From positions 1 through 64,000 of the forward strand of contig JAVVLW010001350.1 in the NCBI GenBank assembly GCA_034401795.1: a stretch of DNA of 64,000 nucleotides, read 5' to 3'. The notes beneath the pieces were generated by a model. That model made no database searches. It worked only from the letters and a program-made list of their open reading frames with translations, and was not told the DNA's origin. Source of the stretch: Chaetoderma sp. LZ-2023a. Lineage: Eukaryota; Mollusca; Caudofoveata; Chaetodermatida; Chaetodermatidae. The position numbers were made by a program, and so were the translations under genes. Shown in pieces: positions 22,902-63,474 of this stretch. Every line of letters begins with the position of its first letter. Position 1 is the first letter of the stretch.

Positions 22902-22945
<44 letters not shown>

Positions 22946-23099
22946 GTGAAGATGATGATGATGATTATGCTGCTGCTGCTGCTGATGATGATGATGATGA
23001 TATTGATGCTGGTGGTGATGAAGCTGACGATAATGATGACAATGATTATGCTGCTGCTGCTGCTGGTGATGATGATGATCATGACGATGATTATGCTGC

Positions 23100-23141
<42 letters not shown>

Positions 23142-23162
23142 CGACGATGATTAGGCTGCTGC

Positions 23163-23221
<59 letters not shown>

Positions 23222-23462
23222 TTGATGCTGATGACGATTACGATGATGATGATGACGATGATTATGCTGCTGCTGCTGATAATGATGATGATGATGATTA
23301 TGCTGCTGCTGCTGCTGCTGATGATGATAATGATGCTGATGATGTTGATGATGCTGATGAAGCTGACGATAATGATGATGGTGGTGGTGATGCTGATGAT
23401 GATGATGATGAAGCTGACGATAATGATGCTGCTGCTGATGATGATGATGATGACGATGATGA
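22856..23462. repeat. Compound trinucleotide microsatellite (GAT/GCT)n
   Basis: About 600 bp of GATGATGAT runs interspersed with GCTGCTGCT blocks. Long open frames on both strands (His/Gln-rich on minus, Met-rich on plus) are a trivial consequence of the repeat. It lies in CDK8 intron 4. Confidence 0.95.
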
Positions 23463-27093: not shown

Positions 27094-27378
27094 AGCGGTT
27101 CACAATCAAGAGCTAATTCTCTCTGTACAAATAAACCACGGTCATGAACACAAAATCCCTAATCTTGTCGCCTAAATCTGTATGTAATGTTCTACACCTC
27201 AAACTGGACTTTTACATAACTGAACACGTGTGCTGTTTCCCACCACGCACGGACATCAAGCGGCGTGAAGTCATGCATGCATGTGCATTTCGTACTTGGA
27301 ATTATGTCAGCTAACGCGGGGACAAAAAGTATGGCAGCCTAGTTGTACCATCATGTTTCTACGTTCTATTGTTTTTGC

Positions 27379-28462: not shown

Positions 28463-28682
28463 GAAAAAATGTACTTTTTAAGGATTGAAAGGGCTAATGA
28501 AACTGGCTCAACTATCAATAGAGTCATCCGATACATGTATATGATTTTCTATTCATAAACTTAAAATATGAATGCAAAAATTCAGGTTACACACCCCCCC
28601 CCCCCCCACCCTTGCTGGTGAGTTTGGGTAGGCAAGCCTAATATCCAGTAGCCATGCTGATCTTCATGACTGCTGAGTGCAG

Positions 28683-28793
28683 TGTTGTCACTGACCAGAT
28701 CTCTGTGCAGCACCCAGTGAGCATGCAAATAGTGAATGCTGCTATAGTGTTGTCACTGACCAGATCTCTGTGTAGCACCTGGTTAGCGGGTAA
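28683..28793 (-). repeat. Two extra copies of the CDK8 exon 4 3' end plus donor (64-bp units)
   Basis: GTGTTGTCACTGACCAGATC recurs at 28683, 28747 and, across the DIRS insertion, at 44141. On the minus strand the first unit reads IHYLHAHWVLHRDL followed by GTCAGT, like exon 4 itself. The second is cut at 28793 by DIRS family B; its remaining 18 bp (ATAGTGAATGCTGCTATA) follow the DIRS right end at 44123. These are pseudo-exons unless spliced. Confidence 0.88.
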
Positions 28794-30476: not shown

Positions 30477-31670
30477 TTAACTAATGTTCGACAAATTGGC
30501 AACGGCTACTGGATTAAGTGCGCTGGAGATGTCGCGAAGGTAGAAATCAGTAAATGACGACTCGGCATGCCATTGTGCTACAGACATCACCTCCTCTAAT
30601 GAGACACCCTTAAAAAGGGCCGATGATGCTGCTAATGCTCGGAGCTGATGGGCGTTCGCTCGATCAATCTGCTTTCCTGTAGCAATTTTGTGTGACATCT
30701 GAATAGCATCAACTATCCAACGAGAAATAGTATCTTTCGAGGCGCACAAATGAGGAGCTTTGAGACATAACCAGAGATATTTCAGGTCATCTCTCCACTC
30801 CTCAGTACGTTTTTTTATACATTTTCAGACATCTGACAGGACACCAAGCAGAAGAGTTTGGGTCATGTCTAACTAAACTTGGCAAATTGATCAGTTGACC
30901 TGGATATTTAAGTGACTGCTTCTTTGCCAGGAAATAAAGATGTGGAAGTAGTCTTAAACCTTCACCCGTGACGACAAAACGGTCTTGCTCAGCAGATAGT
31001 GCATGAATCTCGCTTCTCCTTCTCGCCGACGCTGCTGCAACCAAGAAAACTGATTTAATAGTTAACAGTTCAATATCTATAGATCTAATCGGTTCAAAGG
31101 GAGCATACCATAAAACCTGTAGAACAAGAGATAGATTCCATGCTGGGATAGGAATTGGCTGTCTAGGTCACAGATTGCTCATTCCTTTAATAATTTCATT
31201 CAAAGTGTCATTCTCCACTCCTTCAATGGCCAGACTGGGATCGACTGAAGCTAATGCAGACTTATATGCTGCTAGGGTTGAAGGTACAAGTTTTTCAACT
31301 TCGTATAAATGACAGATAAAATCTGCTATGTGTTGAACAGATGCAGATAAGGGATTAATATCTCTTCCCTGGCACCATTCTGCAAATTTGTTGATTCTAT
31401 AATTATATGTTTTGGTGGTTGACCCTCTTCTGGCTGAAGCGACAAACTTCACTGCTTGCTCAGAAAAGCCACCCTCAATTGCACGCTGCTTGACAACATC
31501 CATGCAGTCAATTTGAACATTTCCGGTCTGTCGTGAAGACACAGACCCTTGTTCTGAGTGATTAAATCCCTTCGGTCTGGAAGAGGGATTGGATTGCAGA
31601 CCAGAAGGTCCAGCAGATCCGTAAACCATAATCGGCCTGGCCAATGAGGGGCGATCAGTAGTACTTGGCA
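30477..31670 (-). pseudogene. Tyrosine recombinase of DIRS B1, broken
   Basis: It keeps the catalytic landmarks: SARRRSEIHALSAEQDRF, AHQLRALA (HxxR), AQWHAESSFTDFYLRD with the Tyr. The frame is broken by a frameshift at a T run near 30810 and a stop after KGMSNL near 31170 (an Arg CGA to TGA change would explain it). The upstream part (QIDCMDVVKQRAIEGGFSEQ) is open and overlaps RT. Confidence 0.88.
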
Positions 31671-32482
31671 TACTCCTTCTCTTATCTTTGCCAGAACTTT
31701 CAGGATGAGAATCATTGGAGGATACGCATACATTCCTTTCGAACTTATCGCCAGTGCGTCTACTGCCAAGGCTAGCGGGTCCGGGATCGGTGACACATAT
31801 GTGAACATCTTTGCGTTTTGTTTCATCGCAAATAGATCCACATTTGGTTTGCCCCAATGTTTGAATAGAACCTCCGCTACCGATTGGTTGAGCTGCCATT
31901 CCGTCGGATGACAAACCATCCTTTGACTGAGCGCATCTGCTAAGATGTTCAGTCTTCCTGGAATGTGTGCTGCCCGAAGAATAATATTCCTCTCTTGGCA
32001 CCACAGCAGAAGGTTCCAAATCATCATGCACAACTCTGGTGACCTCGTCCCGCCTTGGCGGTTCAAATAACACACCACTGTTGAGTTGTCTGTCCTTATT
32101 AGGACAATCTTGTCTTGAATTAAATTCTCGAACTTTCGAAGTGCTAATACCACCGCTAATAATTCGAGAACATTGATATGTTTCTGCGCATTGGTCCGAT
32201 CCCATTTCTCTGACACTGATCGATTGTCCAATACCGCTCCCCAACCCATCGTCGATGCATCTGTAAAGATGGACATCTGTGGTTGAGGAGGTTCTAGAGG
32301 AACACCTCGCAGGAGATTCTGTTCTGATAACCACCATTGAAGATGGAATATCAATGGTTGTTTTACTAGAATTGTCAGAGATAACGGATCCGTTTTCTGA
32401 GACCAGAACGACATTAGATACATTTGAATTGGCCTGCGCCTGAGCGCCACATAAGGAACCACTTTCTCCAGAGACACTAGTA
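31449..32482 (-). pseudogene. RNase H and DIRS domain of B1 (3' half of RT gene)
   Basis: Open for 347 codons: FTDASTMGWGAVLDNRS, RTDNSTVVCYLNRQGG, HIPGRLNILADALSQR, HWGKPNVDLFAMKQNAK, IAPHWPGRLWFTDLLDLL. It continues, across the hAT-like insertion, the RT at 34386-34764. The insertion at 32482/34380 split the gene after the RT thumb. Confidence 0.88.
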
Positions 32483-32816
32483 CAGGGTTCATACACCTTC
32501 AGCAGAATTAAATTCCATACCTTTTCCAGACTTTTCCAGACTCAATTTCAAATTTTCCAGACCTCATTTTGGGACTTCAATCAGACAAAAAACAAACACA
32601 GTTAGTAAGTTCATCATACATAAACTTTATTAAACTTTATAAAACAAGAATATCAAAACACAGCATGCACACTTTTGCCTGTGGAACTGAAGCAACCGCA
32701 GTAGTGGAAGACCCGAGGACAATAACAAACTGCATATATAAATAATTGTCACAAGAATGTTAAAGCACAGCGCGCGCACACACAGATATGAATTTCATTA
32801 CAGCAGCACATTTTTT

Positions 32817-32905
32817 GTTGAATAGTTTGAAAATAATTTGACTGGAAACTGTTGCTGCTTTAAGCAGCAATAGTTTCCAGTCAAATTATTTTCAAAATAT
32901 TCAAC
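32817..32905. repeat. Foldback mini-element, GTTGAATATTTTGAAA type (copy 4)
   Basis: GTTGAATAGTTTGAAAATAA.. GACTGGAAACTGTTGCTGCT faces AGCAGCAATAGTTTCCAGTC.. TTTTCAAAATATTCAAC. The hairpin is nearly perfect. Confidence 0.82.
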
Positions 32906-33183
32906 AGCTATCCTATCAAAACACACTATTAAAAGATCATAGGAGTTATCTTAATCTAATATAGCCAGAAATATCAACATACACACAAACACACACAGTG
33001 TGTCACACATACACAGGGTTTCTCATTATAAAGGGACCTTTTGAGGGTATATAGCCCCAAAATCTAGATTGGGAACAGTATATTGTCTATGAGTGGCTCT
33101 GGGAACCGTATATTGTCTAGGAGTGGCTCAGTGTTTTTCAGGATGCAAACCAGATATGAATTTCATTACAGCAGCACATTTTT

Positions 33184-33263
33184 TGTTGAATATTTTGAAA
33201 ATAATTTGACTGGAAACTGTTGCAGCAATAGTTTCCAATCAAACTATTTTCAAAATATTCAAC
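33184..33263. repeat. Foldback mini-element, GTTGAATATTTTGAAA type (copy 5)
   Basis: Same as copy 4 but with 9 fewer bases at the tip of the loop. Both copies share 35 bp of left flank (GATATGAATTTCATTACAGC..), so one arose by duplication inside the hAT-like element. Confidence 0.82.
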
Positions 33264-34385
33264 AGCTATCATGCAAAGTTGAGCTTGAGACACCCACATT
33301 TATTTGTTGAGGGAGACCCCCACCCCACCCCTTTAGATGACAAGTTAAACCCTGCACATATGCACAATATACTAATTTAATTTTAATTTACCATAGCTGA
33401 TCATATCGCCATAGCAACAGGAGGAATCCTCATTATCTTGACAATGTGGCCTCGCGATACGAAAGAGCTGTCGGACAGTCAATAATATTTTACCGTGACT
33501 CAGCGCAAAGTTGGGGTCATCTAACATTGGGCGATATAAAATTTCCACGCTTCTAAATGATCGCCATAGCAACAGGAATTCATTATTTTCACTCGATGAC
33601 AAGCCAACACAAGAGGCCTCATGATACAAGGACAAAGTTGGGATCATCTAACGTTGGGCGATACAAAAGTGATACGCTTCTAAATGATTCTGGTACTATC
33701 AATGTGAAAATGTAAAATATTCTTACCTTGAACCAAAGAAATCCGTAACTTTCGGTGCTGGCTTTAGACGAACTTCTGTCAGTGTCTCATGTTTTTTCCC
33801 TGGCATGTGGCTAACAAGAGCCGCTTCGCCCATATTCCCGATGTCAAACGACTTATTACAAACACTACATTTGGCAATGCGAGTTTGATGTGTTGTCCGG
33901 TAAAATCAAATCCTTATATTTATCATTAGTTTCCCAAACACTAGCATATTTGCACTTTCCCATCTTTACTGTATCACAAAAAAATGGCAATCTCGGAAAT
34001 TATTTCATTGTTTCTGCTTCTAACGCTCTGTACTATTTGACCGACGACTGCCGATTCACTCATTTTTATTGCGTTGTACTTGAACATGTTCAGAACCTGT
34101 ATTGCTCAACAACCGCGCGATGTTCCCGGTAATAGGCGGCTTTCTATTGCAAGACGAGACCGGGACCCAACTGAATTAGATTCTGGCAAGATTGGCGGAA
34201 AGGCGAGATTTCGTTCGTAAAGAAAAAGATTGCGGTCGGAAAAATTAGGATTGCCGATATTTTAATTTTCCATACGAGTTGGCCCAAAATTGGAATTTCC
34301 ATACTTTTTCCAGGCCTGGAAAAGGCTTTCCTAATTTTCCATACTTTTTCCAGACTTCCATACATGCGTACGAACCCTGCTAGTA

Positions 34386-34764
34386 AACCCAGTATTCTGA
34401 GAAACTGGCGCGCCGTCAGATAGGCTCCTAGAGAAACCGACTCCAAAACTGCAATCAGGCTCTTGACTCTGCTCTCCACTGGAAAAGCTACGCCGTCCCT
34501 GAGATTGAAAAGAATTCCCAGATATACAAACTCCTGGGATGGAGTCAATTCTGATTTCTCTAGATTCACGATCCATCCTAGCTCCTTTAGTAAGGCTAGG
34601 ACTACCTGAAGATTGTTGCGCAGATCGACTGGATTCCATGCCTTCAGCAGCCAGTCGTCTATGTAAGTGTGAACAGCTATGTTTCTCCTGCGAAGATAAG
34701 AAGTCATGGCGATGACCACTTTGGTGAAGACCCTTGGAGCTGTGGTCAAGCCGAATGGAAGCAC
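34386..34764 (-). pseudogene. Reverse transcriptase of DIRS B1 (5' half, N-terminus deleted)
   Basis: The frame begins MLPFGLTTAPRVFTKVVIAM, then HTYIDDWLLKAWNP, LGWIVNLEKSELTPSQEFVY. The fingers domain (GWRPILN, LKDAYFHIPI) is absent: immediately upstream the sequence switches to the middle of ORF1 (HADTGALC), so a deletion of roughly 1.5 kb joined them near 34765. The 3' side is interrupted by the hAT-like element. Confidence 0.85.
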
Positions 34765-35990
34765 AGCGCTCCCGTGTCAGCATGAGAGCCTGGCCGCGTG
34801 TCTTCCCCCAGAGCGGCGCGGTCATCCATGCTCGGTCTGGGAGCTAGACCGTACCAAGTGAGCTGACTGGCAGTAACCCGGCAACATCTCGCAACCTCGC
34901 GGGGGGGGGCCTTCGCGAGGCAACCTTTCGGCCTTATCGCTCTGGTTTGACAGCGAGGAGCCATACCCACGCGTCAGACCAGTTTTCGTCCGTGGCCACC
35001 TGCGAATTGCCAACAAGCAGCGGGCCCTCGTCATCTTCAACGGCATTCGCAGGTTGGGCTGTGGAGGAGGCTACAGACCTACCTGACTGCCTGGGGAATG
35101 CATACGGGCCCGTCAGGGCCAGCATGGCATTCTCCATGGGCAGGCCACGCACCGGAGCCGCATTCGTGTGAGGGGCATAAGACACACTAGCTTGCTCCGG
35201 GTTGTCTGTATAAATTCCACGGCTAAGCGTGGTATCTTATACTGGCAGCTGTCCACTCCCAAGCGGTCCACAGGTTGAATCATGAAACCCGCTCCTGAGG
35301 GAGTGGTGCGAGTGGCCCCACTCCCCATGAAGGGAGTGTAAACACTCTCATCCATGGCTTCATGTTCGTCCTGTGGGCCGAGCAGGTAGTCTTCGTCATC
35401 TTCCGGGTCAGGAAAGTTAGACTCCGGGTTAGCAAAGAAAGCTAACCCAGACTGACCAGGAAAATGATGATGATGAAGATACTCTGCGAGTGATCGCAGT
35501 CGGGCCCGCTGGTTTGGTCCTGCCTGACGCTACTCATGCCGCTGGATCACCAGGCCATGTGAACATCAAGCCTGGGTCCGAGTCGGCTGCCCCTGGACCA
35601 TTGAAAACTTTGTTGTCCGAACTAGGAAAGCATGATCCAGGGATGGGGGCTATTTGCTCTGAGCTCGATGCACAGGAGGCTGAAACACCTGTGCCCGAAA
35701 GCATGCCAGGCATCAGGTCCTTCAACGTCGTACGCATCTCACTCACTAACACTATTTTGATGGCCTCCAGCTCACCCTTCTCGGAGGCCTTCCTCTTACC
35801 TTCCCTTTCCTCAGTCTCTTGCCGTCATCCATCATCATCTTCACCTGCAATGAGAAGAATTCAGAGGTCAGATCCCTCCACTCTACAAATACCACATTTG
35901 TTATTAGACCTACAGCCATTACAAGATGGGCAGAGGTGGGGGAAGAATCTAGCCTTAAGATGTCTGTCGCATGACGAACATGATGACTTC
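34765..35990 (-). pseudogene. ORF1 (Gag-like) of DIRS B1, broken and truncated
   Basis: Pieces in several frames match ORF1 of copy 0: a Cys/His N-terminus just below 35990 (KSSCSSCD after TTTCAG), LVSEMRTTLKDLMPGMLSGT, then GPYAFPRQSG, and DEGPLLVGNSQVATDENWSD. The C-terminal third is missing through the deletion that also removed the RT N-terminus. Confidence 0.78.
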
Positions 35991-38104: not shown

Positions 38105-39253
38105 TCAAAATCGATAAGGCGAGAGGATTCGAGGTGTCATGGAGATAATGGTCGGTAAAACTTGAGCTACTGACATAATGTCATCCACAGGTACCCCATT
38201 AAATAGGGCAGTGGAAGCCACTACGCCCCGAACACTGTGAGCCTTGGCCATGCCAACTTGCTTACCTGTGGCAGATTCATGGCAAAATTGAATACACTCT
38301 ACAATCCACCTGGAAATGGTGTCCTTTGACACCCTGCCATGGGGTTCAATTATGACAACCATAACGCTATTGGGTCCGTCCGCCATTCCTGAGTATGTTG
38401 TTTGTACTGGTTTAATGCTCGGACTGGACACCATGCTTTTGAATTAGGATCATATCTAGTCCAAGCTGGTAAAAATATAGGTTGACCTGGATATTTCAGA
38501 CTGGTTTTTAGCCATGAAATTTATCCTAGGTAGAAGCCTAAGGCCTTCCCCTGTAACCACAAAATGGTCTGCCTTGGCTGATAAGGCATGAATCTCACTT
38601 CTACGCCTAGCCGAGGCCGCAGAAATTAAAAATACAGTTTTAAGTGTCAACCTTTTCATAGAAATGGAACTTAGTGGTTCAAATGGCCTATCAGCTAGTA
38701 CCTGAAGCACTAGTGATAAACTCCAAGACGGAATCACTGGAGGATTCCTTGGTCTTAGATTGCCCATGCCTTTGATTAAAGTATGTAATGTACTTACTTC
38801 ATCACTTCCCCTATTAGCCAAGCAATGGATAACTGTCATTAAAGCTGACTTATAGCCAGCAATAGAATTAGGCTTCAGGCTATAGGCATCACACAGGTGA
38901 CAGAGGAAATTGGCTACTACCTGAATAGATGAATCCATTGGATTAATACATCTTTTTGAGCACCATTCTGCAAATCTGTTGATTTTATAATTATATGCTT
39001 TGGAGGTTGACCCCCTTCTGGCTTTTGCCATGAACATGGCTGCTTGCCCAGAAAAGCCCTCCTTAATTCTAGATTCCTTGACAACATCCACGCAGTCAAT
39101 TGGAACATTGACGGATTGCTGTGAAGGGTCTTGCCCTGGAAGATAATATTGTCCATCAGAGGCACAGGAACCGGATTGCAGACCAGAAGGTCCAGCAGAT
39201 CCGTATACCATGATCGGCATGGCCAATTTTGGGCGATCAGAAGCACTTGGCAT
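38105..39253 (-). pseudogene. Tyrosine recombinase of DIRS copy 3, broken
   Basis: KARRGSTSKAYNYKINRFAE, SARRRSEIHALSA and the HxxR box AHSVRGVV are legible, but the frame breaks near 38440 and the segment carrying AQWHCESSFTDH is partly deleted (SVAQVLPTIIS), removing the usual spacing to Tyr. Inactive. Confidence 0.87.
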
Positions 39254-40870
39254 TCCTCCTATCTGATTTTATGAAGAATTTTTGGAATCAGGATTGCTGG
39301 AGGGAATGCGTAGGCATACATTCCCACCCAGCTGATAGCTAACGCATCTGGAATCGGAGAGACACATGTCGTCATCTTCGCATTCTTCTTCGTTGCGAAT
39401 AAATCTATGTTGGGTTTGCCCCAGTGGTTGAACAGACAATCCGTCACACATTGATTTAGTTGCCATTCCGTAGGTAAAACACTCATCCTTCGGCTCAATG
39501 AGTCTGCTAGCAGATTTAACCTTCCCAGAATAGGAATTGCTTTCAAGGAAATCCTGTGATTCAGGCACCAGCAAAGCAGTTTCCATGTCATCATACAAAG
39601 ACTGGGCGACTTCGTTCCGCCCTGGCGGTTTATGTAAGTCACTACTGTTGAGTTGTCTGATCGTATTAGAACAACCTTGCCCTGAACCTTCATTAAGAAA
39701 TGTTCCAGGCCCAGGACTACTGCTCGTAATTCCAGTAGATTTTTATGTTCTTCTGACTGTTCCAGATTCCAAAGCCCTGATATCGCCGATTGTTCCAGGC
39801 AAGCTCCCCACCCGTCCATCGATGTATCTGTATACATCATTAACTGAGGGTGAGGGGGGTTAGTATCACCCCCGCCATTGCAGGTGGTGAATTAGAGGCT
39901 CCAGCACTGAACCTGTACTCTGGGTCCATTGCATCATGAGAAATAACTGGATAGGCTGCCTGCATAAGGCTGCCTGAGGAATGACTGGTTCCAGAGAAAC
40001 CATCGACCCCAGCATTCTCAGGTAAACCTGTGCCAGGACATGATGACTGTTGCACACTGACTGTATTACTGAGATGAGTACTTGTACCCTCTCCTGAGTA
40101 GGATAAACATATCCTATCTCCAGATCGAATAACATTCCCAGGTAAACAAACTTCTGGGATAGAGTCAGCTCTGATTTCTGAAAGTTGATTATCCAGCCCA
40201 AGTTTGTGAGAGTCTTCAAAACTATCTCCAGATTCGCTGATAAACTTTCCTGATTGTGGGCTTTTAACAGCTAGTCGTCTATGTACGTGTGGACTGCTAT
40301 GCTTCTCCTGCGGAGGTATGCTGTAATCTCAGGAAGCGACGGAAACTCCTCGCTATTGGAATGTGGAAATAAGCATCCTTCAAATCTATTGAAGCTGTCC
40401 ACATCCCCATCTCCAACCCTGCCAACACCGATTTCATTCTCCATTTTGAAACTGTGTGTGTCTATGAACTTGTTCAATGGCTTGAGGTTGAGAATTGGTC
40501 TCCACCCTCCAGTGCTTTTCGTCACTAGGAACACGGTTGAATAGAAGCCCGGGCAATTTTGTGCCGGTTGAATTGCTCCTTTGAATATGAGGGAATTTAT
40601 TTCCTCCTCTATACACAACTGCTGATCTGGATCTCTTGGAATTTATGTCCAGACTGGCACCAGAGACAGTCGTGATGGCGGGCCTGTTATTCAGTCGGGA
40701 TGATACCCGACTGAAAGCCATCGCAAGACTAAACGGTCCCGAGTCAACCGTTCCCACTCTTGCATGTGGTTGGCCAATCGGCCTCCCACTGGTCCACCTA
40801 GGGAGAGAGGTGGACATAAGGAGAGCAAGAGTGGCACTGTCTCTTGGTGCAGATGCACTGGAGTAGCTCT
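38917..40870 (-). pseudogene. RT-RNase H of DIRS copy 3, broken
   Basis: RT pieces 40271-40618 (GWRPILNLKPLNKFIDTH, HTYIDD) and 39866-40219 are out of frame and miss the LPFGISTAPRVF segment. RNase H 39259-39840 (YTDTSMDGWGACLEQS, RSDNSTVVTYINRQGG) is open. The DIRS domain continues at 38917-39246. Confidence 0.87.
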
Positions 40871-42905
40871 TACTGTGGTAATCGCCCCATCAGGTACGAT
40901 TACCATGACCAGATCCTTGCTCACCACGGCCCGCACCATGCACACCTCGGTGCGTGAGCGGCTGCCTGCGCCGGAGGAGCCTGCGCCCCCTCGCTGCTGG
41001 CCGAAGCGTGCACGGCGCTGCGCTGGTGGCTGGCCTCTGACCTGGCCACCGCCATCTCGAGCCTGCAAGGGATGATATGCAGGGGGAGCAGCGCGAACAC
41101 GCTCTCTGCAGAGCACTTCAAATTGCTCACGCAATGCCCTCTGGTTATTGACCAGGGTAACCGTCTCCTGGAGGTGCCTACATCCCTCACCCCCAAAGAG
41201 ACCAGGACCTGTCATAGGCGTACGCAGCAGCCTATTATACAAATCCTGGGATGGGCACAAGTTATCGCCCGGACACTCCTGGTTACAGACCAGGTTAAAC
41301 AGTCAAGCCAAGTTAATTCCATCTTGGATGGCTCTCTGGACAGTCACCGAACTAGGCTGGCACAATGCGGATGCCGCTACTACCCCTTGTAACAGCTGTG
41401 AGACGTGCGAAAGTGCTGAGATAGACGCCCTAGAACTCTCTTCCGCATCGCGCAATGTGGTGTTAGCCAAACGCAAAGCATTCAAGCACAGTGCTCCCGT
41501 GTCATACCGGCAACATGGCCGCGTATCTTCACCTAGCGCAGAGCGATCATCCGCGCTTGGCTTCGGCACTACACCGTATAACTGATATTGATCAGCTACA
41601 ATACGGCATCACCTTGCCACCGCGCGAGGGGCCTTCGCTAGACATCCATGTGCCCGAATGCACGTCTCTGCCACAGTGAACATATCAACAATATGATCAG
41701 CTATTGGCAGAGATGGCCTAGCGGTAACAGTCGGTTTACCTGCCAGCCGGGCGCTGGTCCCGTTGACTGGCCGACTGATCCACAGCAAGACCTGGCCTGA
41801 CGTTTATTAGCCACTGACAAGCGTCAGACCAGTCTTCCTCTGTTGCCACCTGCGAATGCTCTACAAGACAAGGGCCTTGGTCATCCTCCTGAGCAATTGC
41901 AGGTGAGTGTATGGCTGGAGGAAACGATATGCCTGACAAGCCAGAGAAAGCATGCAGGCCTGAATGAGCAGGCATGCCAAACTGACTGGCTTAACCAGGA
42001 GCAGGCGCCGTGGTATTGCGTGGGAAAAATTCGCCACACCACGGCCCTGGCCAGCACCTGCTACACCATCGGCAAGCCGAGGTATGCGGAAAAACTGGCC
42101 ATCAGATCCAGCCCGGGCTACCTTCTGTGCCGTGAACGCTACTCCTGCGTGAGTAGTCCCATGGACAATGTCGCCCGTATTCCCCGCGAGGGGTGCACGT
42201 ACGTCAATGTCCATGGACACGGCGCCAGAAGGAGAACCCAGCATATAATCCTTTTCTTCCTGGCCAGAAAGATTAGACTCCAGGTCAGCAAAGACTGCTA
42301 ACCCGGACTGGCCAGGAAAGGTACCATAGGTGGAGCTGGTACCTGCAGGGTGTGGATAATCCTGGCCTGATAAGCAGGCACCAGGCTCCAGCGACACCTG
42401 TCCACGAACAACCAGCGCGGCAAGCCTGCTGCCAGTGTCCTCATAGTGGAATTCACCCTCTATTAGGGCCACCTCTGAATCATGGACGAAAACTGGTAGG
42501 TCCCTAGGTAGCACCGATTCAGAGGCGGGGATTATCTGCTCCGGAGCAGATGAAGAGGACAATGAAAGATTTGAACCAGAAAGCATGCCACAAAGCAACT
42601 CTGGGACCAAATCCTTAACTGCCCTCTTCATCTCTCCCATCATCTCAATACGGAAGGCTTCCATATCCATAGAGGATGAGGCCTTCCTCTTACCCTACTT
42701 ACCAGAACCCTCCTTCTTAACTTTTCTCTCCTCCTCCAGAGCCTTCTCTTTGGTCTGCAAAGATAGAAATTCAGACATTAGCTCCCCCACCCACTTTTTA
42801 CAGATCTCACATTTAAGCATGGCCCACATGGCTGCATAGGGAGCATACGTGAGGGGCGAATCTATCCTTGATAAATCTTCCACATAATGACAACCAGGCC
42901 TCTGA
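40871..42905 (-). pseudogene. ORF1 (Gag-like) of DIRS copy 3, broken
   Basis: Segments match copy 2 in order: RPGCHYVE (Cys/His part damaged), DMEAFRIEMMGEMKRAVKDL, SNLSGQEEKDYMLGSPSG, GPGLFGGEGCRHLQETVTLV, in several frames. As in copies 1 and 2, ORF1 ends TGA TGG (near 40891) and the frame beyond is open into MSTSLPRWTSGRP. Confidence 0.83.
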
Positions 42906-43887: not shown

Positions 43888-44081
43888 GCCAATAAATTAG
43901 CAAAGAGGTAGAACTAGTCTGCGCATGCGCGGTGGTGGGGCTAGCATCCGCCAGCCTGTCATCTGACTACCTGCCCAGTAGGGGCACCTAACTTTTTTAA
44001 TCTGAGTGTTTTATTGAGTGAAAGCCGATATTTAGCAATATCAAAGAGTATTAGGGAGGTAAGTATACTCTTGAAGTGAAA
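43888..44081 (-). repeat. Right ITR of DIRS copy 3
   Basis: It contains GCGCATGCGC (43921-43930) and ends AGTATTAGGGAGGTAAGTAT..GAAGTGAAA. B1 sequence follows at once. Confidence 0.86.
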
Positions 44082-44154
44082 CAAGAGTGTTAGGGAGTTA
44101 AGTATGTTCTCATAATGTGAAAATAGTGAATGCTGCTATAGTGTTGTCACTGAC

Positions 44155-44295
44155 CAGATCTCTGTGTAGCACCCAGTTAGCGTGTAAATAGTGAATACCA
44201 TCCAGAATCTGATACAGCAGAGATTTCACCATGTTCTTTGGAACATTCAAAGCCTTCTTGTTCACTTTAGCCGAGCGATGAAACTTGATGATATG
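44155..44295 (-). CDS. CDK8: CDK8 exon 4 (HIIKFHR..VLHRDL)
   Basis: Exactly 47 codons, phase 0 on both sides. It starts [14 protein letters not shown], continues [18 protein letters not shown] and ends WVLHRDL. HRD is the catalytic loop with the catalytic-base aspartate. The donor GTCAGT is weak-looking but is retained in two extra copies of the exon end (28683-28793). The acceptor is CTATTTTCAG, and the 32-bp satellite starts 10 bp upstream of the exon, so the likely branch point TACTAAT, 21 nt from the AG, lies in the first satellite unit. The next exon in the transcript is 22 kb away. Confidence 0.95.
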
Positions 44296-44305
44296 CTGAA
44301 AATAG

Positions 44306-47300
44306 ACATGAAATCATTAGTACCCGCCAGTGAAGTCACATGAAATCATTAGTACCTGCCAGTGAAGTCACATGAAATCATTAGTACCCGTCAGTGAAGT
44401 CACATGAAATCATTAGTACCTGTCAGTGAAGTCACATGAAATCATTAGTACCTGCCAGTGAAGTCACATGAAATCATTAGTACCTGTCAGTGAAGTCACA
44501 TGAAATCATTAGTACCTGCCAGTGAAGTCACATGAAATCATTAGTACCCATCAGTGAAGTCACATGAAATCATTAGTACCTGTCAGTGAAGTCACATGAA
44601 ATCATTAGTACCTGTCAGTGAAGTCACATGAAATCATTAGTACCTGCCAGTGAAGTCACATGAAATCATTAGTACCTGTCAGTGAAGTCACATGAAATCA
44701 TTAGTACCCGTCAGTGAAGTCACATGAAATCATTAGTACCCGTCAGTGAAGTCACATGAAATCATTAGTACCTGCCAGTGAAGTCACATGAAATCATTAG
44801 TACCCATCAGTGAAGTCACATGAAATCATTAGTACCTGTCAGTGAAGTCACATGAAATCATTAGTACCTGTCAGTGAAGTCACATGAAATCATTAGTACC
44901 TGCCAGTGAAGTCACATGAAATCATTAGTACCCGTCAGTGAAGTCACATGAAATCATTAGTACCCGTCAGTGAAGTCACATGAAATCATTAGTACCCGTC
45001 AGTGAAGTCACATGAAATCATTAGTACCTGCCAGTGAAGTCACATGAAATCATTAGTACCCATCAGTGAAGTCACATGAAATCATTAGTACCCATCAGTG
45101 AAGTCACATGAAATCATTAGTACCCATCAGTGAAGTCACATGAAATCATTGGTACCTGTCAGTGAAGTCACATGAAATCATTAGTACCTGCCAGTGAAGT
45201 CACATGAAATCATTAGTACCTGTCAGTGAAGTCACATGAAATCATTAGTACCCGTCAGTGAAGTCACATGAAATCATTAGTACCCGTCAGTGAAGTCACA
45301 TGAAATCATTAGTACCCGTCAGTGAAGTCACATGAAATCATTAGTACCTGCCAGTGAAGTCACATGAAATCATTAGTACCTGCCAGTGAAGTCACATGAA
45401 ATCATTAGTACCCATCAGTGAAGTCACATGAAATCATTAGTACCCATCAGTGAAGTCACATGAAATCATTAGTACCTGTCAGTGAAGTCACATGAAATCA
45501 TTAGTACCTGTCAGTGAAGTCACATGAAATCATTAGTACCCGCCAGTGAAGTCACATGAAATCATTAGTACCCGCCAGTGAAGTCACATGAAATCATTAG
45601 TACCCGTCAGTGAAGTCACATGAAATCATTGGTACCTGTCAGTGAAGTCACATGAAATCATTAGTACCTGTCAGTGAAGTCACATGAAATCATTAGTACC
45701 TGCCAGTGAAGTCACATGAAATCATTAGTACCCATCAGTGAAGTCACATGAAATCATTAGTACCTGTCAGTGAAGTCACATGAAATCATTAGTACCCGTC
45801 AGTGAAGTCACATGAAATCATTAGTACCCATCAGTGAAGTCACATGAAATCATTAGTACCCGTCAGTGAAGTCACATGAAATCATTGGTACCTGTCAGTG
45901 AAGTCACATGAAATCATTAGTACCTGTCAGTGAAGTCACATGAAATCATTAGTACCCATCAGTGAAGTCATATGAAATCATTAGTACCTGTCAGTGAAGT
46001 CACATGAAATCATTAGTACCCGCCACTGAAGTCATATGAAATCATTAGTACCTGTTAGTGAAGTCATATGAAATCATTAGTACCTGTCAGTGAAGTCACA
46101 TGAAATCATTAGTACCTGCCAGTGAAGTCACATGAAATCATTAGTACCTGTCAGTGAAGTCATATGAAATCATTAGTACCTGTCAGTGAAGTCACATGAA
46201 ATCATTAGTACCCGCCAGTGAAGTCACATGAAATCATTAGTACCCGCCAGTGAAGTCACATGAAATCATTAGTACCTGTCAGTGAAGTCACATGAAATCA
46301 TTAGTACCTGCCAGTGAAGTCACATGAAATCATTAGTACCTGTCAGTGAAGTCACATGAAATCATTAGTACCTGCCAGTGAAGTCACATGAAATCATTAG
46401 TACCCGTCAGTGAAGTCACATGAAATCATTAGTACCTGTCAGTGAAGTCACATGAAATCATTAGTACCTGCCAGTGAAGTCACATGAAATCATTAGTACC
46501 TGTCAGTGAAGTCACATGAAATCATTAGTACCTGCCAGTGAAGTCACATGAAATCATTAGTACCCATCAGTGAAGTCACATGAAATCATTAGTACCTGTC
46601 AGTGAAGTCACATGAAATCATTAGTACATGAAATCATTAGTACCTGCCAGTGAAGTCACATGAAATCATTAGTACCCGCCAGTGAAGTCACATGAAATCA
46701 TTAGTACCCGCCAGTGAAGTCACATGAAATCATTAGTACCTGTCAGTGAAGTCACATGAAATCATTAGTACCTGCCAGTGAAGTCACATGAAATCATTAG
46801 TACCTGTCAGTGAAGTCACATGAAATCATTAGTACCTGCCAGTGAAGTCACATGAAATCATTAGTACCCGTCAGTGAAGTCACATGAAATCATTAGTACC
46901 TGTCAGTGAAGTCACATGAAATCATTAGTACCTGCCAGTGAAGTCACATGAAATCATTAGTACCTGTCAGTGAAGTCACATGAAATCATTAGTACCTGCC
47001 AGTGAAGTCACATGAAATCATTAGTACCCATCAGTGAAGTCACATGAAATCATTAGTACCTGTCAGTGAAGTCACATGAAATCATTAGTACCTGTCAGTG
47101 AAGTCACATGAAATCATTAGTACCCGCCAGTGAAGTCACATGAAATCATTAGTACCTGTCAGTGAAGTCACATGAAATCATTAGTACCCGCCAGTGAAGT
47201 CACATGAAATCATTAGTACCCGTCAGTGAAGTCACATGAAATCATTGGTACCTGTCAGTGAAGTCACATGAAATCATTAGTACCTGCCAGTGAAGTCACA

Positions 47301-49935
47301 TGAAATCATTAGTACCCATCAGTGAAGTCACATGAAATCATTAGTACCTGTCAGTGAAGTCACATGAAATCATTAGTACCCGTCAGTGAAGTCACATGAA
47401 ATCATTAGTACCCATCAGTGAAGTCACATGAAATCATTAGTACCCGTCAGTGAAGTCACATGAAATCATTGGTACCTGTCAGTGAAGTCACATGAAATCA
47501 TTAGTACCCGCCACTGAAGTCACATGAAATCATTAGTACCCATCAGTGAAGTCATATGAAATCATTAGTACCTGTCAGTGAAGTCACATGAAATCATTAG
47601 TACCCGCCACTGAAGTCATATGAAATCATTAGTACCTGTTAGTGAAGTCACATGAAATCATTAGTACCCGTCAGTGAAGTCACATGAAATCATTAGTACC
47701 CATCAGTGAAGTCACATGAAATCATTAGTACCCGTCAGTGAAGTCACATGAAATCATTGGTACCTGTCAGTGAAGTCACATGAAATCATTAGTACCTGTC
47801 AGTGAAGTCACATGAAATCATTAGTACCCATCAGTGAAGTCATATGAAATCATTAGTACCTGTCAGTGAAGTCACATGAAATCATTAGTACCCGCCACTG
47901 AAGTCATATGAAATCATTAGTACCTGTTAGTGAAGTCATATGAAATCATTAGTACCTGTCAGTGAAGTCACATGAAATCATTAGTACCTGCCAGTGAAGT
48001 CACATGAAATCATTAGTACCTGTCAGTGAAGTCATATGAAATCATTAGTACCTGCCAGTGAAGTCACATGAAATCATTAGTACCCGCCAGTGAAGTCACA
48101 TGAAATCATTAGTACCCGCCAGTGAAGTCACATGAAATCATTAGTACCTGTCAGTGAAGTCACATGAAATCATTAGTACCTGCCAGTGAAGTCACATGAA
48201 ATCATTAGTACCTGTCAGTGAAGTCACATGAAATCATTAGTACCTGCCAGTGAAGTCACATGAAATCATTAGTACCCGTCAGTGAAGTCACATGAAATCA
48301 TTAGTACCTGTCAGTGAAGTCACATGAAATCATTAGTACCTGCCAGTGAAGTCACATGAAATCATTAGTACCTGTCAGTGAAGTCACATGAAATCATTAG
48401 TACCTGCCAGTGAAGTCACATGAAATCATTAGTACCCATCAGTGAAGTCACATGAAATCATTAGTACCTGTCAGTGAAGTCACATGAAATCATTAGTACC
48501 TGTCAGTGAAGTCACATGAAATCATTAGTACCCGCCAGTGAAGTCACATGAAATCATTAGTACCTGTCAGTGAAGTCACATGAAATCATTAGTACCCGCC
48601 AGTGAAGTCACATGAAATCATTAGTACCCGTCAGTGAAGTCACATGAAATCATTGGTACCTGTCAGTGAAGTCACATGAAATCATTAGTACCTGCCAGTG
48701 AAGTCACATGAAATCATTAGTACCCATCAGTGAAGTCACATGAAATCATTAGTACCTGTCAGTGAAGTCACATGAAATCATTAGTACCCGTCAGTGAAGT
48801 CACATGAAATCATTAGTACCCATCAGTGAAGTCACATGAAATCATTAGTACCCGTCAGTGAAGTCACATGAAATCATTGGTACCTGTCAGTGAAGTCACA
48901 TGAAATCATTAGTACCCGCCACTGAAGTCACATGAAATCATTAGTACCTGTCAGTGAAGTCACATGAAATCATTAGTACCTGTCAGTGAAGTCACATGAA
49001 ATCATTAGTACCCGCCAGTGAAGTCACATGAAATCATTAGTACCTGTCAGTGAAGTCACATGAAATCATTAGTACCTGTCAGTGAAGTCACATGAAATCA
49101 TTAGTACCTGTCAGTGAAGTCACATGAAATCATTAGTACCCGCCAGTGAAGTCACATGAAATCATTAGTACCTGTCAGTGAAGTCACATGAAATCATTAG
49201 TACCCATCAGTGAAGTCACATGAAATCATTAGTACCTGTCAGTGAAGTCACATGAAATCATTAGTACCCATCAGTGAAGTCATATGAAATCATTAGTACC
49301 TGTCAGTGAAGTCACATGAAATCATTAGTACCCATCAGTGAAGTCATATGAAATCATTAGTACCTGTCAGTGAAGTCACATGAAATCATTAGTACCCGCC
49401 ACTGAAGTCATATGAAATCATTAGTACCTGTCAGTGAAGTCATATGAAATCATTAGTACCTGTCAGTGAAGTCACATGAAATCATTAGTACCCGTCAGTG
49501 AAGTCATATGAAATCATTAGTACCTGTCAGTGAAGTCACATGAAATCATTAGTACCCGCCACTGAAGTCATATGAAATCATTAGTACCTGTCAGTGAAGT
49601 CACATGAAATCATTAGTACCCGTCAGTGAAGTCACATGAAATCATTAGTACCTGTCAGTGAAGTCACATGAAATCATTAGTACCTGTCAGTGAAGTCACA
49701 TGAAATCATTAGTACCTGTCAGTGAAGTCACATGAAATCATTAGTACCCATCAGTGAAGTCATATGAAATCATTATTACCTGTCAGTGAAGTCATATGAA
49801 ATCATTAGTACCTGTCAGTGAAGTCACATGAAATCATTAGTACCGCCAGTGAAGTCATATGAAATCATTAGTACCTGTCAGTGAAGTCACATGAAATCAT
49901 TAGTACCCATCAGTGAAGTCATATGAAATCATTAG
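44306..49935. repeat. 32-bp satellite array, about 175 units, in CDK8 intron 3
   Basis: The unit begins ACATGAAATCATTAGTACCT and continues GYCAGTGAAGTC. Units are 32 bp with few variants, mainly CCCGCC, CCTGCC, CCTGTC, CCCATC and CCCGTC at the centre, CATATG for CACATG, and TTGG for TTAG. One 16-bp half unit occurs near 46622. On the CDK8 sense strand every standard unit contains GTACTAATGATTTCATG. The array starts 10 bp from exon 4. Confidence 0.97.
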
Positions 49936-50395: not shown

Positions 50396-50843
50396 TGCAG
50401 ACGCCACATAAACACTCGTCTGTTAGCGCAGCTGATGCAGACTCCACATAAACACTGGTCTGTTAGCGCAGCTGATGCAGGCTCCACATAAACACTGGTC
50501 TGTTAGCGCAGCTGAGGCAGACTCCACATAAACACTGGTCTGTTAGCGCAGCTGATGCAGACTCCACATAAACACTGGCCTGTTAGCGCAGCTGATGCAG
50601 ACTCCACATAAACACTGGTCTGTTAGCGCAGCTGATGCAAGCTCCACATAAACACTGGTCTGTTAGCGCAGCTGATGCAGGCTCCACATAAACACTGGCC
50701 TGTTAGCGCAGCTGATGCAGACTCCACATAAACACTGGTCTGTTAGCGCAGCTGATGCAGGCTCCACATAAACACTGGTCTGTTAGCGCAGCTGATGCAG
50801 GCTCCACATAAACACCAGTCTGTTAGTGCAGCTGATGCAGATT
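50396..50843. repeat. 40-bp tandem repeat, about 11 units
   Basis: Unit GCAGACTCCACATAAACACT then GGTCTGTTAGCGCAGCTGAT; small variants (GGCTCC, ACTGGCC). In CDK8 intron 3, 170 bp before exon 3. Confidence 0.95.
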
Positions 50844-51009
50844 CCTTGAACAATGAAGATAGAGAAAATATGTGTGCATGTATGGGCACTAGGTTTAGCT
50901 GCCAAGCCTGCTATATCACACTAAATTCTGCTTGATATTTATACTATTTTCTCTTTGTGCCGCGGATTAGCAAGCATTTACATGTATCATTAAGCATAAC
51001 TCCACATAC

Positions 51010-51120
51010 CCATAAGTCGAGTTCAGCAAATTCAAACAAGAGCCACACTTTTCTGTCTGAATGTGAGAGAAACACTTTCTGTAGACTAATCACATTCGGG
51101 TGTTTAAGTTCTCGCAGCAA
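51010..51120 (-). CDS. CDK8: CDK8 exon 3 ([14 protein letters not shown])
   Basis: Exactly 37 codons, phase 0 on both sides. The translation begins [20 protein letters not shown] and ends [12 protein letters not shown], covering kinase beta-4, beta-5 and the hinge. Human CDK8 is nearly the same here, with YAEHDLW at the hinge. The acceptor is a pyrimidine-rich tract ending TTTTTCAG and the donor is GTATGTGG. It lies about 170 bp from a 40-bp tandem repeat in the same intron and 1.1 kb from a 32-bp satellite array. I see no disruption. Confidence 0.95.
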
Positions 51121-58306: not shown

Positions 58307-59425
58307 CTATCGTTTCAAAACAGCTAAAGCGAGTGGATTGGCTGAGTCTGACACATCCCTCATATAGTAATCCGTGAATGAGGACTCACAGTGCCATTGT
58401 GCAACGGCCAATGATGTCCTCTAACGGAACACCATTGTAAAGGGCGGTCGAGGCGGCTATTCCTCTGACATCGTGTGCCCTTACCCCTTGCACCTGGTGC
58501 CCAGTCGCCATCTCGTGAGTAGTCTGAATGCATTCGACCACCCAACGAGAGATAGTATCCATGGATGCGGCGCCATAAGGCTTTTTATGGCAGATCCACA
58601 GATGTCTATCGTTCGACCGTAACGAGTCAGTCCGTTTCTTGTACTTAGTCAAAGCACGGACCGGGCACCAGACACTGGCATCACGATCAAACCTAGTTAA
58701 CTTCGGTATAATGATCGGTTTGCCGGGATATCTCAAAGATTGGTTCTTTGACATAAACTCTGCTCTTGGCAGAAGACGCAGACCTTCTCCAGAAACAATA
58801 AATCGGTTCCTCTCTGCCGAAAGCGCATGGATCTCACTGCGCCTTCTAGCTGAGGAAGCTGCCACTAGAAAGACCGCCTTTAGAGTCAAATGCTTTAGAC
58901 TAGCCGAACGCAACGGTTCGAAAGGGTGCTTGGCCAGTACATTAAGCACTAAAGATAGACTCCAGGCTGGAATGACTACCGGTTGTCTCGGGCGGAGATT
59001 GCTCATTCCCTTCAACATCACATTTAACTGGGCCACCTCTGGACTATCCCTGTTGGCTAGACAAGGGATAACTGATGCCAAAGCTGACTTGTATCCAGCA
59101 ACTGTGACGGGAGCTAGTCCTGAAAAGAACAGCTCACAGAGAAAGTCTGCTATTTGCTGAATAGTAGATTGAAAGGTATCAATACCCTTTTCTTCACATC
59201 AGTCTGCAAATCTGTTAACCGTGTTGTTATATGACTTGAAGGTTGACCTCCTTCTCGCAGCCGCGATGAAATCAGCAGCCTGTCGAGAAAAGCCTTCCGA
59301 CGTGGAACGTTGTTTGATAACATCCACGCAGTCAATTTGAACATTTCGGGACGCTCGTGTAGGAAGCGTCCATTGGCCTGGGAGATTATGTTCGGAATCT
59401 CGGGCAACTGCACAGGATTTTCCAC
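58307..59425 (-). pseudogene. Tyrosine recombinase of DIRS family D, broken
   Basis: Landmarks: QIDCVDVIKQRSTSEGFSRQ, AARRRSTFKSYNNTVNRFAD, SARRRSEIHALSAERNRF, AHDVRGIA (HxxR), then after a one-base frameshift near 58413 AQWHCESSFTDYYMRD with the Tyr. A TGA follows RFAD near 59206 where families A and B have Trp (FAEWC). These two lesions, plus none else obvious, separate it from a functional gene. Confidence 0.88.
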
Positions 59426-61325
59426 CAGCAGATCTAGAAGATCCGTGAACCACGCCCTGCTCGGCTAATACGGCGCTATTAGCAGGACCAGACACGGTTC
59501 CTCCCTGACCTTCACCAATACCTTCGGTAGAAGAATGGTGGGTGGGTACGCGTAAGCGTGCATCCCTCTCCAGCTTATCGCCAGAGCGTCTGTATCGACG
59601 GCATTTGGATCTGGAATCGGCGAGACATATGTCATGATTTGAGCATTTTCCTTTGTGGCGAACAAGTCCACGTTGGGTTTGCCCCAATGCTCGAAGATCC
59701 GTCGCAGAACCGGAGGGTTGAGGGACCATTCTGTTGGCAAGATTCTCTGTCTGCGAGACAAAGCATCCGCCAGAATGTTCAATCGGCCAGGAATATGAGC
59801 TGCTTTCAAAACAAACGAGTAATTCCTGCACCATTGAATCAAGTGCCACACCCTGATACACAGAGTGGGCGACCTGGTCCCGCCGTGGCGATTTATATAT
59901 GATACTATTGTCGAATTGTCCGACCGTATCAATATCACCTTGCCCCTGATCATCGGAAGGAACTCTTCCAACGCCAGTTCCACTGCCATCATTTCCAACA
60001 GATTGATATGCAGCTGACACTCCGGGAGAGTCCATGTGCCCGAGACCTGGTGTTCTCCCAGGCAGGCACCCCACCCTTCCAGCGATGCATCCGTGTAGAT
60101 GGACAGCTGGGGGTGGGGTAGGTGCAGCGAAAACCCCTAATAGGAGATTCTGACACTGTTTCCACCATAGAAGATGTGATATTATCGGCTCCAAAACTGG
60201 CACCAGTTTTGACAGGGGTTCTGTTCTCTGTTTCCACAGAGACATCAGATACAACTGGATAGGCCTTCGCATTAGAGCAGCGTACGGGATAACCTGCTCC
60301 ATGGAGACCATCATGCCCAGCATCTGAAGGAACCGCCTCGCCTGAATGTGGTTTCCCACTCGAAAACTCTTGAGGATGGCTAACAGAGACACCACTCTGG
60401 GCTCTGACGGATAAACCCTGCCCTCCTCGAGGTCGAATCGCATCCCCAAATAAACGAAATGTTGAGTGGGCGTCAACTCGGATTTCTCCTCGTTGACTAT
60501 CCAGCCTAGATCTGAAAGTAACTTCAGAGTCAGAGCAGTATCCACGTTCAACCTGGCTGCCGAGTCTGCCTTGAGCAGCCAGTCGTCTATGTAGGTGTGT
60601 AGCGCCACGTTCTCTTTTCTGAGAAACGCTGTCACCGCAAGGACCACTCTTGTGAAAACCCTCGGAGCTGTCGACAGGCCAAACGGGAGAACTGTAAACT
60701 CCCATACTTGATTCTGAAACGCAAATCTCCGAAACCTGTGCCAACTCCGATTCATAGGAATGTGGAAATATGCATCTTTCAGATCGATCGATACACACCA
60801 CATTCCTTTCCTCAATCCCGCCATTACCGACCTCTGCGTTTCCATCTGGAACCGAGGCGTATGGATAAACCAATTTAATGGCCTGAGATTGAGTATGGGT
60901 CTCCATCCCCCTGTGTTCTTGGGGACAAGGAACATGTTTGAATAGAAGCCTGGAGTGTTCCGGTTTGCTGGTTTTATTGCTCCCTTCAGAAACAAACCCG
61001 ACACTTCCTTTTGAATGGCTTCTAACTTGTCTGGCTCCCTTGGTACGGGTGTCCAGACAGGTGCCAAAGACAGATTTTGTGGTGGAAAGTCCCACCACTC
61101 CGGCATGTAACCCTGGGATAACCATCCCAGGACCAGACTGTCTGACGTCACACCTCGCCAGGCCTCGACGAAACGCATGAGCCTTCCACCCACCATAGAC
61201 GCCTCGACGTCTAACGGGGTTGTCCGGCTCGCAGTCCGCCCCCCCCTCTTTCTTAACGAGAGAGACTGAGAACCATTTCGTTCTAGGCACGACGGGTATA
61301 ACTGGCACCACTGTTCCTGTCGCAC
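59150..61325 (-). pseudogene. RT-RNase H-DIRS domain of family D, broken
   Basis: RT is open from 61325: GGWRPILNLRPLNWFIHTP, IDLKDAYFHIPM, LPFGLSTAPRVFTRVV, HTYIDDWLLKAD. A frameshift near 60110 ends it; RNase H and the DIRS domain continue in another frame at 59465-59998 (RSDNSTIVSYINRHGG, HIPGRLNILADALSRR, HWGKPNVDLFATKENA). A TAG after LIAPY replaces the expected Trp, and the tail lies at 59150-59425. By the frameshift, the first frame runs into the recombinase reading frame. Confidence 0.88.
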
Positions 61326-61373
61326 AGGCGCGGTCCAGGCGGATATGAAGGGAGCTTTCGTACCCTCAGCCAG

Positions 61374-63474
61374 TCAGGTACGCTTCGGCCCCTTCTGTCC
61401 GCCCTTTGAGGCCTTACCCTTACCCTTCCCGCCTCTAGGGCGGTCAGGAGCAACATTGGGGAGGGTAGGCGCCTCTACAACCTTCCTGGGCTTCTTCGCC
61501 GGCGGTGGCTCCGAAAACCCAGCTGAAGCAGAAGTCGCAACAGGCCTGGCTTTCGCCTTGCCCTTATGCTTCTTCTGCTTCTTTGAAGGCTGTCCCGTTA
61601 GCGGTTTCCCCACAGCCCCTAGTGCGTGCGCTTGCCGCACTAGCTCTAGCTGTAGGTTTACCGCTAACCGATTCTGCGCGATACTGGCGGTATCCTCTAA
61701 GATGGCCCGCGCTTGGCCACCGAAGATGCTAGGCCCTGTCAGGGGCATCCCAAGAAGACGCTCCCTGACTGCCGTAGCCGGACGCATATGGTCAATGACC
61801 ATTTGCCTCCTGGATTTCGTCACTCGCGCTTGCACCCTTGCCAATGCGTCCATCGACAGCACCAGGCCGTCATTGACACATGAAAGCGCCACAGGTGGCA
61901 CAGGGTGGCCTGCCCCCGCTTCAGCCCACACCTACTGAAGGAGACGATAAGAATGGTTGACAGCGCTCATCGCTGCCCTCACACCCTCATCGCATAGGGA
62001 CAGGACTTCTTCCTGGTGTACCTGAGACTTGTCCACTAGTGCCGGACCGGGGCCACCCGCCACGGCACTCTGGACGCCCAGTACCCATCGGTCATCCTCT
62101 GTGACCGACGGGACTACACCATACCTGTCGTATTCCCCCCACGGAATACGACATCTTGCCCGCACCTCCCTGGAGGCCGCAGGGAGCTGACCATTGGTCA
62201 TCAGTTGTTTGCTATAAATAGCATCCAACAAATCTATGAACCGTGGATCCAGTCCCACTGACTGGATCCGGGCCGCGGGCAAAATCCCTGTCCTAATCGA
62301 CGCAACCGATGGACGGGGCGCATCTTCATCGGCCGTGGCCGAAACCACAGACGGGTCAACCCTGGCTAGCCACGCCAGAGCATCTGACCAATCTACCTCC
62401 GACGAAGACACCCCCGCAAACACATCACCCGTTGACGTGCTCACGGGTCTGCCAGCCACGGCCTCCCGGCAAGGAGCCACAGCTGACACGCCAGGCACTC
62501 CGCTACCACACGGTTCCGCCGCCACCCCATGAAACACTCCGGTCCATGGGGTAGGTCCGCACGGAAAACCGTACGGACCCGTAGCAGTCGCGGAACCATA
62601 GCCGGACACGGGCACCAACGGCACCCGACGTCCGACTGCCGGACCAGGCGAGATAGGTGAGTACCACGCCTGGCCCGGCACACCTGTTCCCGTGACGGCT
62701 GGTGCCAAACCAAGCCGCACGGAACCGGTGCACGGGAACGGATTGGCCTCAGCCACAGGCGGAGCCGCTGACCTGGCTTGCGCCAAACCAGACAAATGGA
62801 GGCCGGTTCCGTCCAGGACGGAATCAACCTCCATATTCTCCACCTGCGGCTTCACGGGCCGCAGCAACCTCTCCTCCTCGGCCTCCTCGTCTTCAGACTC
62901 CGAAGAGTCGTCACTAGATGAGTCAACCGTGGAGCCGTCCTGGCGGATGGCTCACACACCTGATGGACCGGCCACCGCTACTAGACCACCCGGAGGGGGC
63001 CGCAGAGAAACAGAACGGGACTGCCAGGGGGCCGTACGAGACGGCCCCCTCGGTAACCAGTCCAGAATCCTGTCCAAGGACAGGATCCGTACCAGGCATG
63101 GGGAGAAACTGCCCCCCAAGCTTTGGTAGCAGGAACGACACCAGCGTGGGCAGAACGCTATGCAGAAAACCCTGCATAGCCGGACCAAACCACGCCGGCG
63201 GTGCCATCTCCGCCACCTCCAGCTGGGGACGTGGAGCACCCCCACCGGCCGAACCGGGCACTCCACGATTTCCTCTCGGACCGCCTGACCCCGCGTCAGA
63301 CCCAGCCAAGTCCTTCTGGGCAAGGAACTTAACCATCATCTCAACGGACCACACTGCACAAACATTACACCTATGATCAATATTACACAGGGAACACCTA
63401 AAACAGGCATGGTCCTTGAACACGACACAGACAAACTTATGGCATTCGTCACATGATGGCGGGGCTGGCTTGGC
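61374..63474 (-). pseudogene. ORF1 (Gag-like) of DIRS family D, broken
   Basis: From the acceptor-like TTATAG ending at 63475: AKPAPPSCDEC, FKDHACFRCSLC, RCNVC, the same Cys/His order as families A and B. A frameshift near 62940 separates this from 61932-62867 (EVDWSDALAWLARVDPS, GEYDRYGVVPSVTEDDRWVL), and an in-frame TAG at 61932 separates the last part 61374-61931, which has LTGPSIFGGQARAILEDTAS, matching GPGLFGGEGCRHLQET, and a Lys/Gly-rich basic tail. Confidence 0.85.

Follow-up and report, generated by a model that had tools for sequence, protein, structure and literature searches.

The stretch considered here, 64,000 nucleotides of Chaetoderma sp. LZ-2023a (positions 1 to 64,000 of contig JAVVLW010001350.1, assembly GCA_034401795.1; hereafter the window), carries the gene CDK8 on its minus strand, and intron 3 of this gene holds a minisatellite array that extends to the immediate vicinity of exon 4 and very probably includes the branch point of the exon-4 acceptor. 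When the contig (C763) is aligned to a human CDK8 protein sequence, exons 1 to 6 are found in their proper order along the minus strand. Exon 3 joined directly to exon 5 keeps an open frame. In intron 3, Tandem Repeats Finder reports on the minus strand, which is the sense strand, an array with a period of 32 bp, 175.5 copies and 93% matches; its 5630 bp correspond to 175.9 units by length. These values agree with the original prediction, in which an array with about 175 copies of the motif starts 10 bp upstream of exon 4. The features of the locus are listed in Table 1.

Table 1. Features of CDK8 intron 3 and of the adjoining exons in the window
Feature	Position	Strand	Remarks
CDK8 exon 4, 141 nt	44155..44295	-	keeps the frame, begins and ends between codons, encodes up to HRDL
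CTATTTTCAG, 10 bases	44296..44305	-	sole intron sequence between the array and exon 4
32-bp minisatellite array, 167 sense-strand TACTAAT	44306..49935	-	CDK8 intron 3; Tandem Repeats Finder and motif count
Last array unit, GGCGGG type, without AG	44306..44337	-	the array on contig C1261 ends with the same type
TACTAAT nearest to exon 4, A at 44317 (-22)	44316..44322	-	most likely branch point; putative use
TACTAAT at -54	44348..44354	-	only other motif for which the exon-4 AG comes first (minimum distance 10 nt); putative use
15-nt partial unit CTAATGATTTCATAT	49921..49935	-	exon-far end of the array
CDK8 exon 3, then donor GTATGT	51010..51120	-	the donor opens intron 3

The array can be divided into 176 pieces that belong to 14 unit types; one piece is a 15-nt partial unit, and two others measure 31 and 48 nt. 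The most frequent unit, read on the minus strand, is GACTTCACTGACAGGTACTAATGATTTCATGT. On this strand the exact heptamer TACTAAT is found 167 times inside the array and 6 times in the rest of the window. Counting both strands, the window contains 180 copies, as compared with a mean of 7.8 and a maximum of 14 in 100 shuffles. It had been proposed that the standard units carry this motif, which would thus be multiplied about 175-fold; the multiplication is evident, but it does not include every unit, given that 8 of them carry TACCAAT (2 in the shorter copy of the array described below) and one carries TAATAAT. In contrast, the designation of the repeat as a satellite was wrong. In the 2.44-Gb assembly, a 27-mer of the unit has 195 exact matches, 144 in the window and 51 on a second contig, C1261, and a 32-mer with up to 3 mismatches has 236 (170 and 66, respectively); all these matches fall in the array itself or in its counterpart on C1261. 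Satellite DNA, with arrays at many loci, was therefore rejected, and the array is a single-locus minisatellite. A coding repeat was also rejected, since each sense frame contains 214 to 216 stops in the long array and 83 to 88 in the short one. No known RNA family reached the gathering threshold in the window, and a 205-nt segment of the sense strand, taken from the exon-proximal end of the array, folds no better than its shuffles (z -0.86).

Intron 3 is all repeat from position -11 to about -5640. Any branch point not contained in the array would have to be over 5.6 kb away from its AG, and for this reason the branch point of exon 4 very probably lies in the array. Branch points are reported from A-10 to A-400; human acceptors commonly have more than one of them, and for the shorter introns of Drosophila the consensus given is CTAAT, at A-14 to A-26 (PMC10638238). 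As had been predicted, the TACTAAT closest to exon 4 fits yUnAy (YTNAY) at the usual distance from an acceptor, its A being at -22, that is, 21 nt from the G of the exon-4 AG. When the best heptamer located 14 to 45 nt before the exon was scored with our own weights, this TACTAAT obtained 10.3, a value that none of the 27 other acceptors examined in this genome reached (mean 8.5). The runner-up candidate of intron 3, TAATGAT at -19, is likewise within the array. TACTAAT could pair with all six U2 positions (-3.2 kcal/mol).

The 27 control acceptors comprise 4 from CDK8 and 23 from the CCT family. Thirty CCT loci were found, and for 28 of them a script chose the best-scoring AG in an open frame, so that the control scores lean high. 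Five of these acceptors were dropped: L033 and L037 showed no clear intron, L036 has the sequence of L035, and L040 and L058 were ambiguous. The two loci left unused, L031 (contig C19) and L032 (contig C18), are intact intronless chaperonin frames of 548 and 549 aa, respectively, on contigs that look bacterial; it is possible that these contigs represent symbionts or contaminants in the assembly.

The distribution of AG dinucleotides restricts the number of units that could serve exon 4. Over the 130 nt that precede exon 4, both copies of the intron have AG only at -2, -62 and -126, and the TACTAAT motifs at -22 and -54 are the only ones with no AG before that of the acceptor. If a branch point is assumed to use the nearest AG located 10 nt or more downstream, the exon-4 AG is reached from just 2 of the 167 motifs of the long copy and 2 of the 65 of the short one; the proposed figure of about 175 candidate branch points is not supported under this rule. 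For the remaining motifs the first AG lies within the array, at 24 nt in 102 of 167 (long) and 40 of 65 cases (short). The long array has 109 AGs, 102 of which are in the sequence CAG|GT, and the short array has 41 CAG|GT, so that the AG|GT junction of recursive or dual-specific sites is present many times. A donor-like CAG/GTACT had been noticed in the units ending in CCTGCC; the sites do exist, but they were undercounted, since units of the CCTGTC type carry them too. The array reads GTACTA at this place, which is not close to a donor of the form AG|GTRAGT: the G at +5 is absent, whereas it is present in all six CDK8 donors that were read. An acceptor inside the array would, by itself, introduce stops in every frame.

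Exon 4 has two matches in the assembly at E ≤0.001, on C763 (84,000 bp) and on C1261 (74,000 bp). These contigs are 99.6% identical over 42.5 kb, about 2.2 kb of array included, and 99.96% identical over 13.6 kb on the other side, and the flanks of the array differ at 1 of 455 and 5 of 1306 bases. The array on C1261 (positions 44283 to 46504 of that contig) has 2222 bp, and the copy number differs accordingly, 69.4 units by length versus 175.9 on C763. The simplest reading is that the contigs are probably two haplotypes, and in support of this idea the short contigs C1286 and C1564 likewise share chaperonin hits; a recent duplication is a conceivable alternative. The copy-number difference would not be real if the array lengths were assembly errors. 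Tandem repeats are prone to misassembly and both contigs are short; nevertheless, the two arrays have identical edges, share their leading 32 units (one of them bearing a private base) and finish with a common last unit, and we consider an error of this kind most improbable. Between the two long alignments, a 940-bp alignment (98.2% identity) contains a 40-bp repeat that is out of register. It belongs to a second array of intron 3, located at positions 50396 to 50845 of the window (40-bp unit, 11.2 copies according to Tandem Repeats Finder), and suggests one additional unit on C1261.

The order of the unit types gives some indication of how the array has changed. From the exon-far end, the first 24 pieces are identical in both arrays, or 32 if the C1261 unit with a private base is tolerated, while in 10,000 shuffles of the unit order the leading agreement was at most 3 pieces. 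At the exon end the two arrays agree in the last unit only, which is of the GGCGGG type and devoid of AG in both. From these two copies, it appears that the changes occurred on the exon-ward side; the long copy also holds an internal repeat of 27 unit types. Among the full-length units of both copies, 3 of 10 substitution types fall in the 7 TACTAAT positions of the 32, where about 2 would be expected by length, indicating that the motif is not protected within the array. One site of the unit reads CG, TG or CA in 47, 25 and 99 of the 171 typed units of the long copy, and in 17, 9 and 40 of the 66 of the short copy, and TA was never found. This is the pattern expected from the decay of a methylated CpG, and the CA products read CAG|GT; we infer, with respect to the ancestral state and the methylation as well, that the CAG|GT sites originated in this way.

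Both ends of the array share CTAATGATTTCATRT; the exon-far end starts with CTAATGATTTCATAT and the exon-near end closes with CTAATGATTTCATGT. The array may have grown between two copies of this 15-mer, in which case the intron once ended in ...AAGACCTAATGATTTCATRTCTATTTTCAG. The heptamer ACCTAAT of this reconstructed end has a branch-point score of 9.1, and under the same assumption it may have been an ordinary ancestral branch point at the same distance from the exon. The earlier proposal that the array grew out of the branch-point region is plausible in view of the shared ends, although the direction of growth is inferred. With regard to the motif as a driver of the array, three TACTAAY spaced by 20 to 50 nt have 14,886 matches in the assembly (overlapping matches on both strands, the CDK8 array included) as compared with 42,628 for the reversed control pattern. 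Given that the reversed ladder is the commoner one, enrichment of the motif was rejected as the force behind the array, and what is special in CDK8 is the position of the array and not the multiplication of the motif.

Taking these data together, we think it likely that a hypervariable and mostly neutral minisatellite overran the branch-point region of the exon-4 acceptor, and that its last one or two units serve splicing. Splicing of intron 3 would use the TACTAAT at -22, and perhaps that at -54, together with CTATTTTCAG outside the array, and the remaining units would be, for the most part, passive length. The unit order has changed on the exon-ward side, while in both copies the unit adjoining the exon contains TACTAAT and is free of AG. 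A function of the multiplication itself is disfavoured by the lack of protection of the motif, the unremarkable folding, and the genome-wide abundance of TACTAAY ladders, which do not outnumber the reversed pattern. Several observations weigh against this interpretation. The branch-point score gives only a mild separation between acceptors and control windows (at least 8.5 in 19 of 27 versus 13 of 27), and it is position, more than score, that carries the argument for a branch point inside the array; yTrAy at 14 to 28 nt is found in 13 of 27 acceptors versus 6 to 7 of 27 control windows. Two copies were compared, and they are presumed to be alleles. In addition, the CAG acceptors of the array score 3.1 to 4.2 and so are no weaker than some of the 23 CCT acceptors, whose scores start at 2.6 and average 5.9, and their CAG|GT would pair with U1 through six bases at -7.1 kcal/mol, about equal to the -5.8 to -9.9 kcal/mol of five CDK8 donors, so that an inactive array cannot be taken for granted.

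If the array were active, its effect could be one of crowding, in which some 170 ACUAAY sites bind SF1, a Quaking-type STAR protein, or both, and slow or repress the inclusion of exon 4 according to copy number; skipping of this exon would keep the frame, since the junction of exons 3 and 5 leaves it open, and would eliminate the HRD motif. A Quaking response element consists of an ACUAAY core and a UAAY half-site within 1-20 nt. The sense strand has 170 ACTAAY in the long array and 66 in the short one, adjacent cores being 32 nt apart, but the half-site is in range for only 7 and 2 of them, respectively. At ACUAA branch sites SF1 meets competition from QKI, which is strong when two sites occur together (PMC13004596), and exon 4 of CDK8 has two such motifs within 80 nt of its acceptor (-22 and -54), as does the QKI-repressed exon 11 of RAI14; there, however, the sites are ACUAAC at 34 and 43 nt from the acceptor, whereas those of CDK8 are ACUAAU with a long ladder behind them (PMC13004596). 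Similarly, Gomafu/MIAT is a transcript with many near-optimal branch-point sequences, and its tandem UACUAAC are bound by SF1 and delay splicing in vitro; the Gomafu repeats, nonetheless, are few in number and exonic, within a nuclear noncoding RNA, in contrast with the 167 intronic and putative sites of CDK8, which read UACUAAU (PMC3116199). Considering also that these papers mostly test ACUAAC, that TACTAAT is unprotected in the units and that TACTAAY ladders are common elsewhere in the genome, crowding seems unlikely.

The CAG|GT sites could instead act as acceptors and donors at once, with whole units being spliced out or the intron being removed stepwise. Their number in both copies, the TACTAAT located 24 nt before the AG in most cases (102 of 167 and 40 of 65), and the U1 pairing are in line with this idea. 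There is also a precedent in UBC, where tandem units each carry AG|GT and removal of whole units is conceivable; the repeats of UBC are coding and their sites are used, whereas those of the CDK8 array are intronic, putative and without G at +5, although in principle they could be respliced in the same manner (PMC10809524). The acceptors of the array, moreover, score under the CCT mean and by themselves give stops in all frames, and we regard dual-specific splicing as very improbable. A broader possibility, which we find hard to credit but would not place quite so low, is that the copy-number-variable ladder of branch points and CAG|GT sites tunes the splicing of exon 4 as a whole: a longer array would bind more SF1 or QKI-type protein and stall U2, resulting in delay, in shortening by whole units or in frame-keeping skipping that yields a product without HRD. 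A passive array is the interpretation that we prefer; the oddity is real and well placed, most likely passive, and the active alternatives can be tested by comparing the two copies.

Among the literature matches listed, none described an array in which the branch point of the adjoining acceptor is itself multiplied. The closest counterpart is the variable number tandem repeat (VNTR) of human ABCA7 intron 18, which has a 25-bp unit in about 12 to about 427 copies, adjoins an exon and includes the donor GT; longer or shorter arrays there correlate with the extent of exon-19 skipping (PMC5954066). Both are intronic arrays of short units that adjoin an exon and take in a splice signal, and in CDK8 the copy number differs between two probably allelic contigs, with the likely branch point inside the array and the AG 10 bp outside it. 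They differ in that the ABCA7 array holds the donor and its length is associated with skipping (PMC5954066), whereas that of CDK8 holds a likely branch point. The ABCA7 type of splice-signal VNTR, so far one of the donor, would thereby come to include the branch point as well. If C763 and C1261 are alleles, a single animal provides a natural experiment, with the same acceptor and the same type of last unit preceded by about 69 or about 176 copies. One could then examine directly if additional strong branch points upstream of an acceptor have any consequence, and if AG|GT splice sites arise in intronic repeats through CpG decay. An inert array would illustrate how tolerant the choice of an acceptor is.

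Other repeats were observed around exon 4. Close behind it, positions 43950 to 44086 of the window belong to a dispersed repeat; of 40 scored matches to the region of exon 4 (669 candidates), 38 are copies of this part located elsewhere in the assembly. Intron 4 contains, at 28681 to 28793, two partial copies of the end of exon 4 and its donor, overlapping in tandem (57 and 70 bp, 93-94% identical), and at 22856 to 23462 a long ATG trinucleotide repeat of about 202 copies. The CDK8 region also has long reading frames on the minus strand in five stretches (6381 to 11204, 13143 to 18200, 30477 to 35529, 38105 to 42694 and 58386 to 63474), which we take to encode reverse transcriptase/RNase H and tyrosine-recombinase-like proteins of DIRS-like retroelement copies, and a minus-strand frame of 343 residues (26068 to 27099), presumably a transposase of the Tc1/mariner type.

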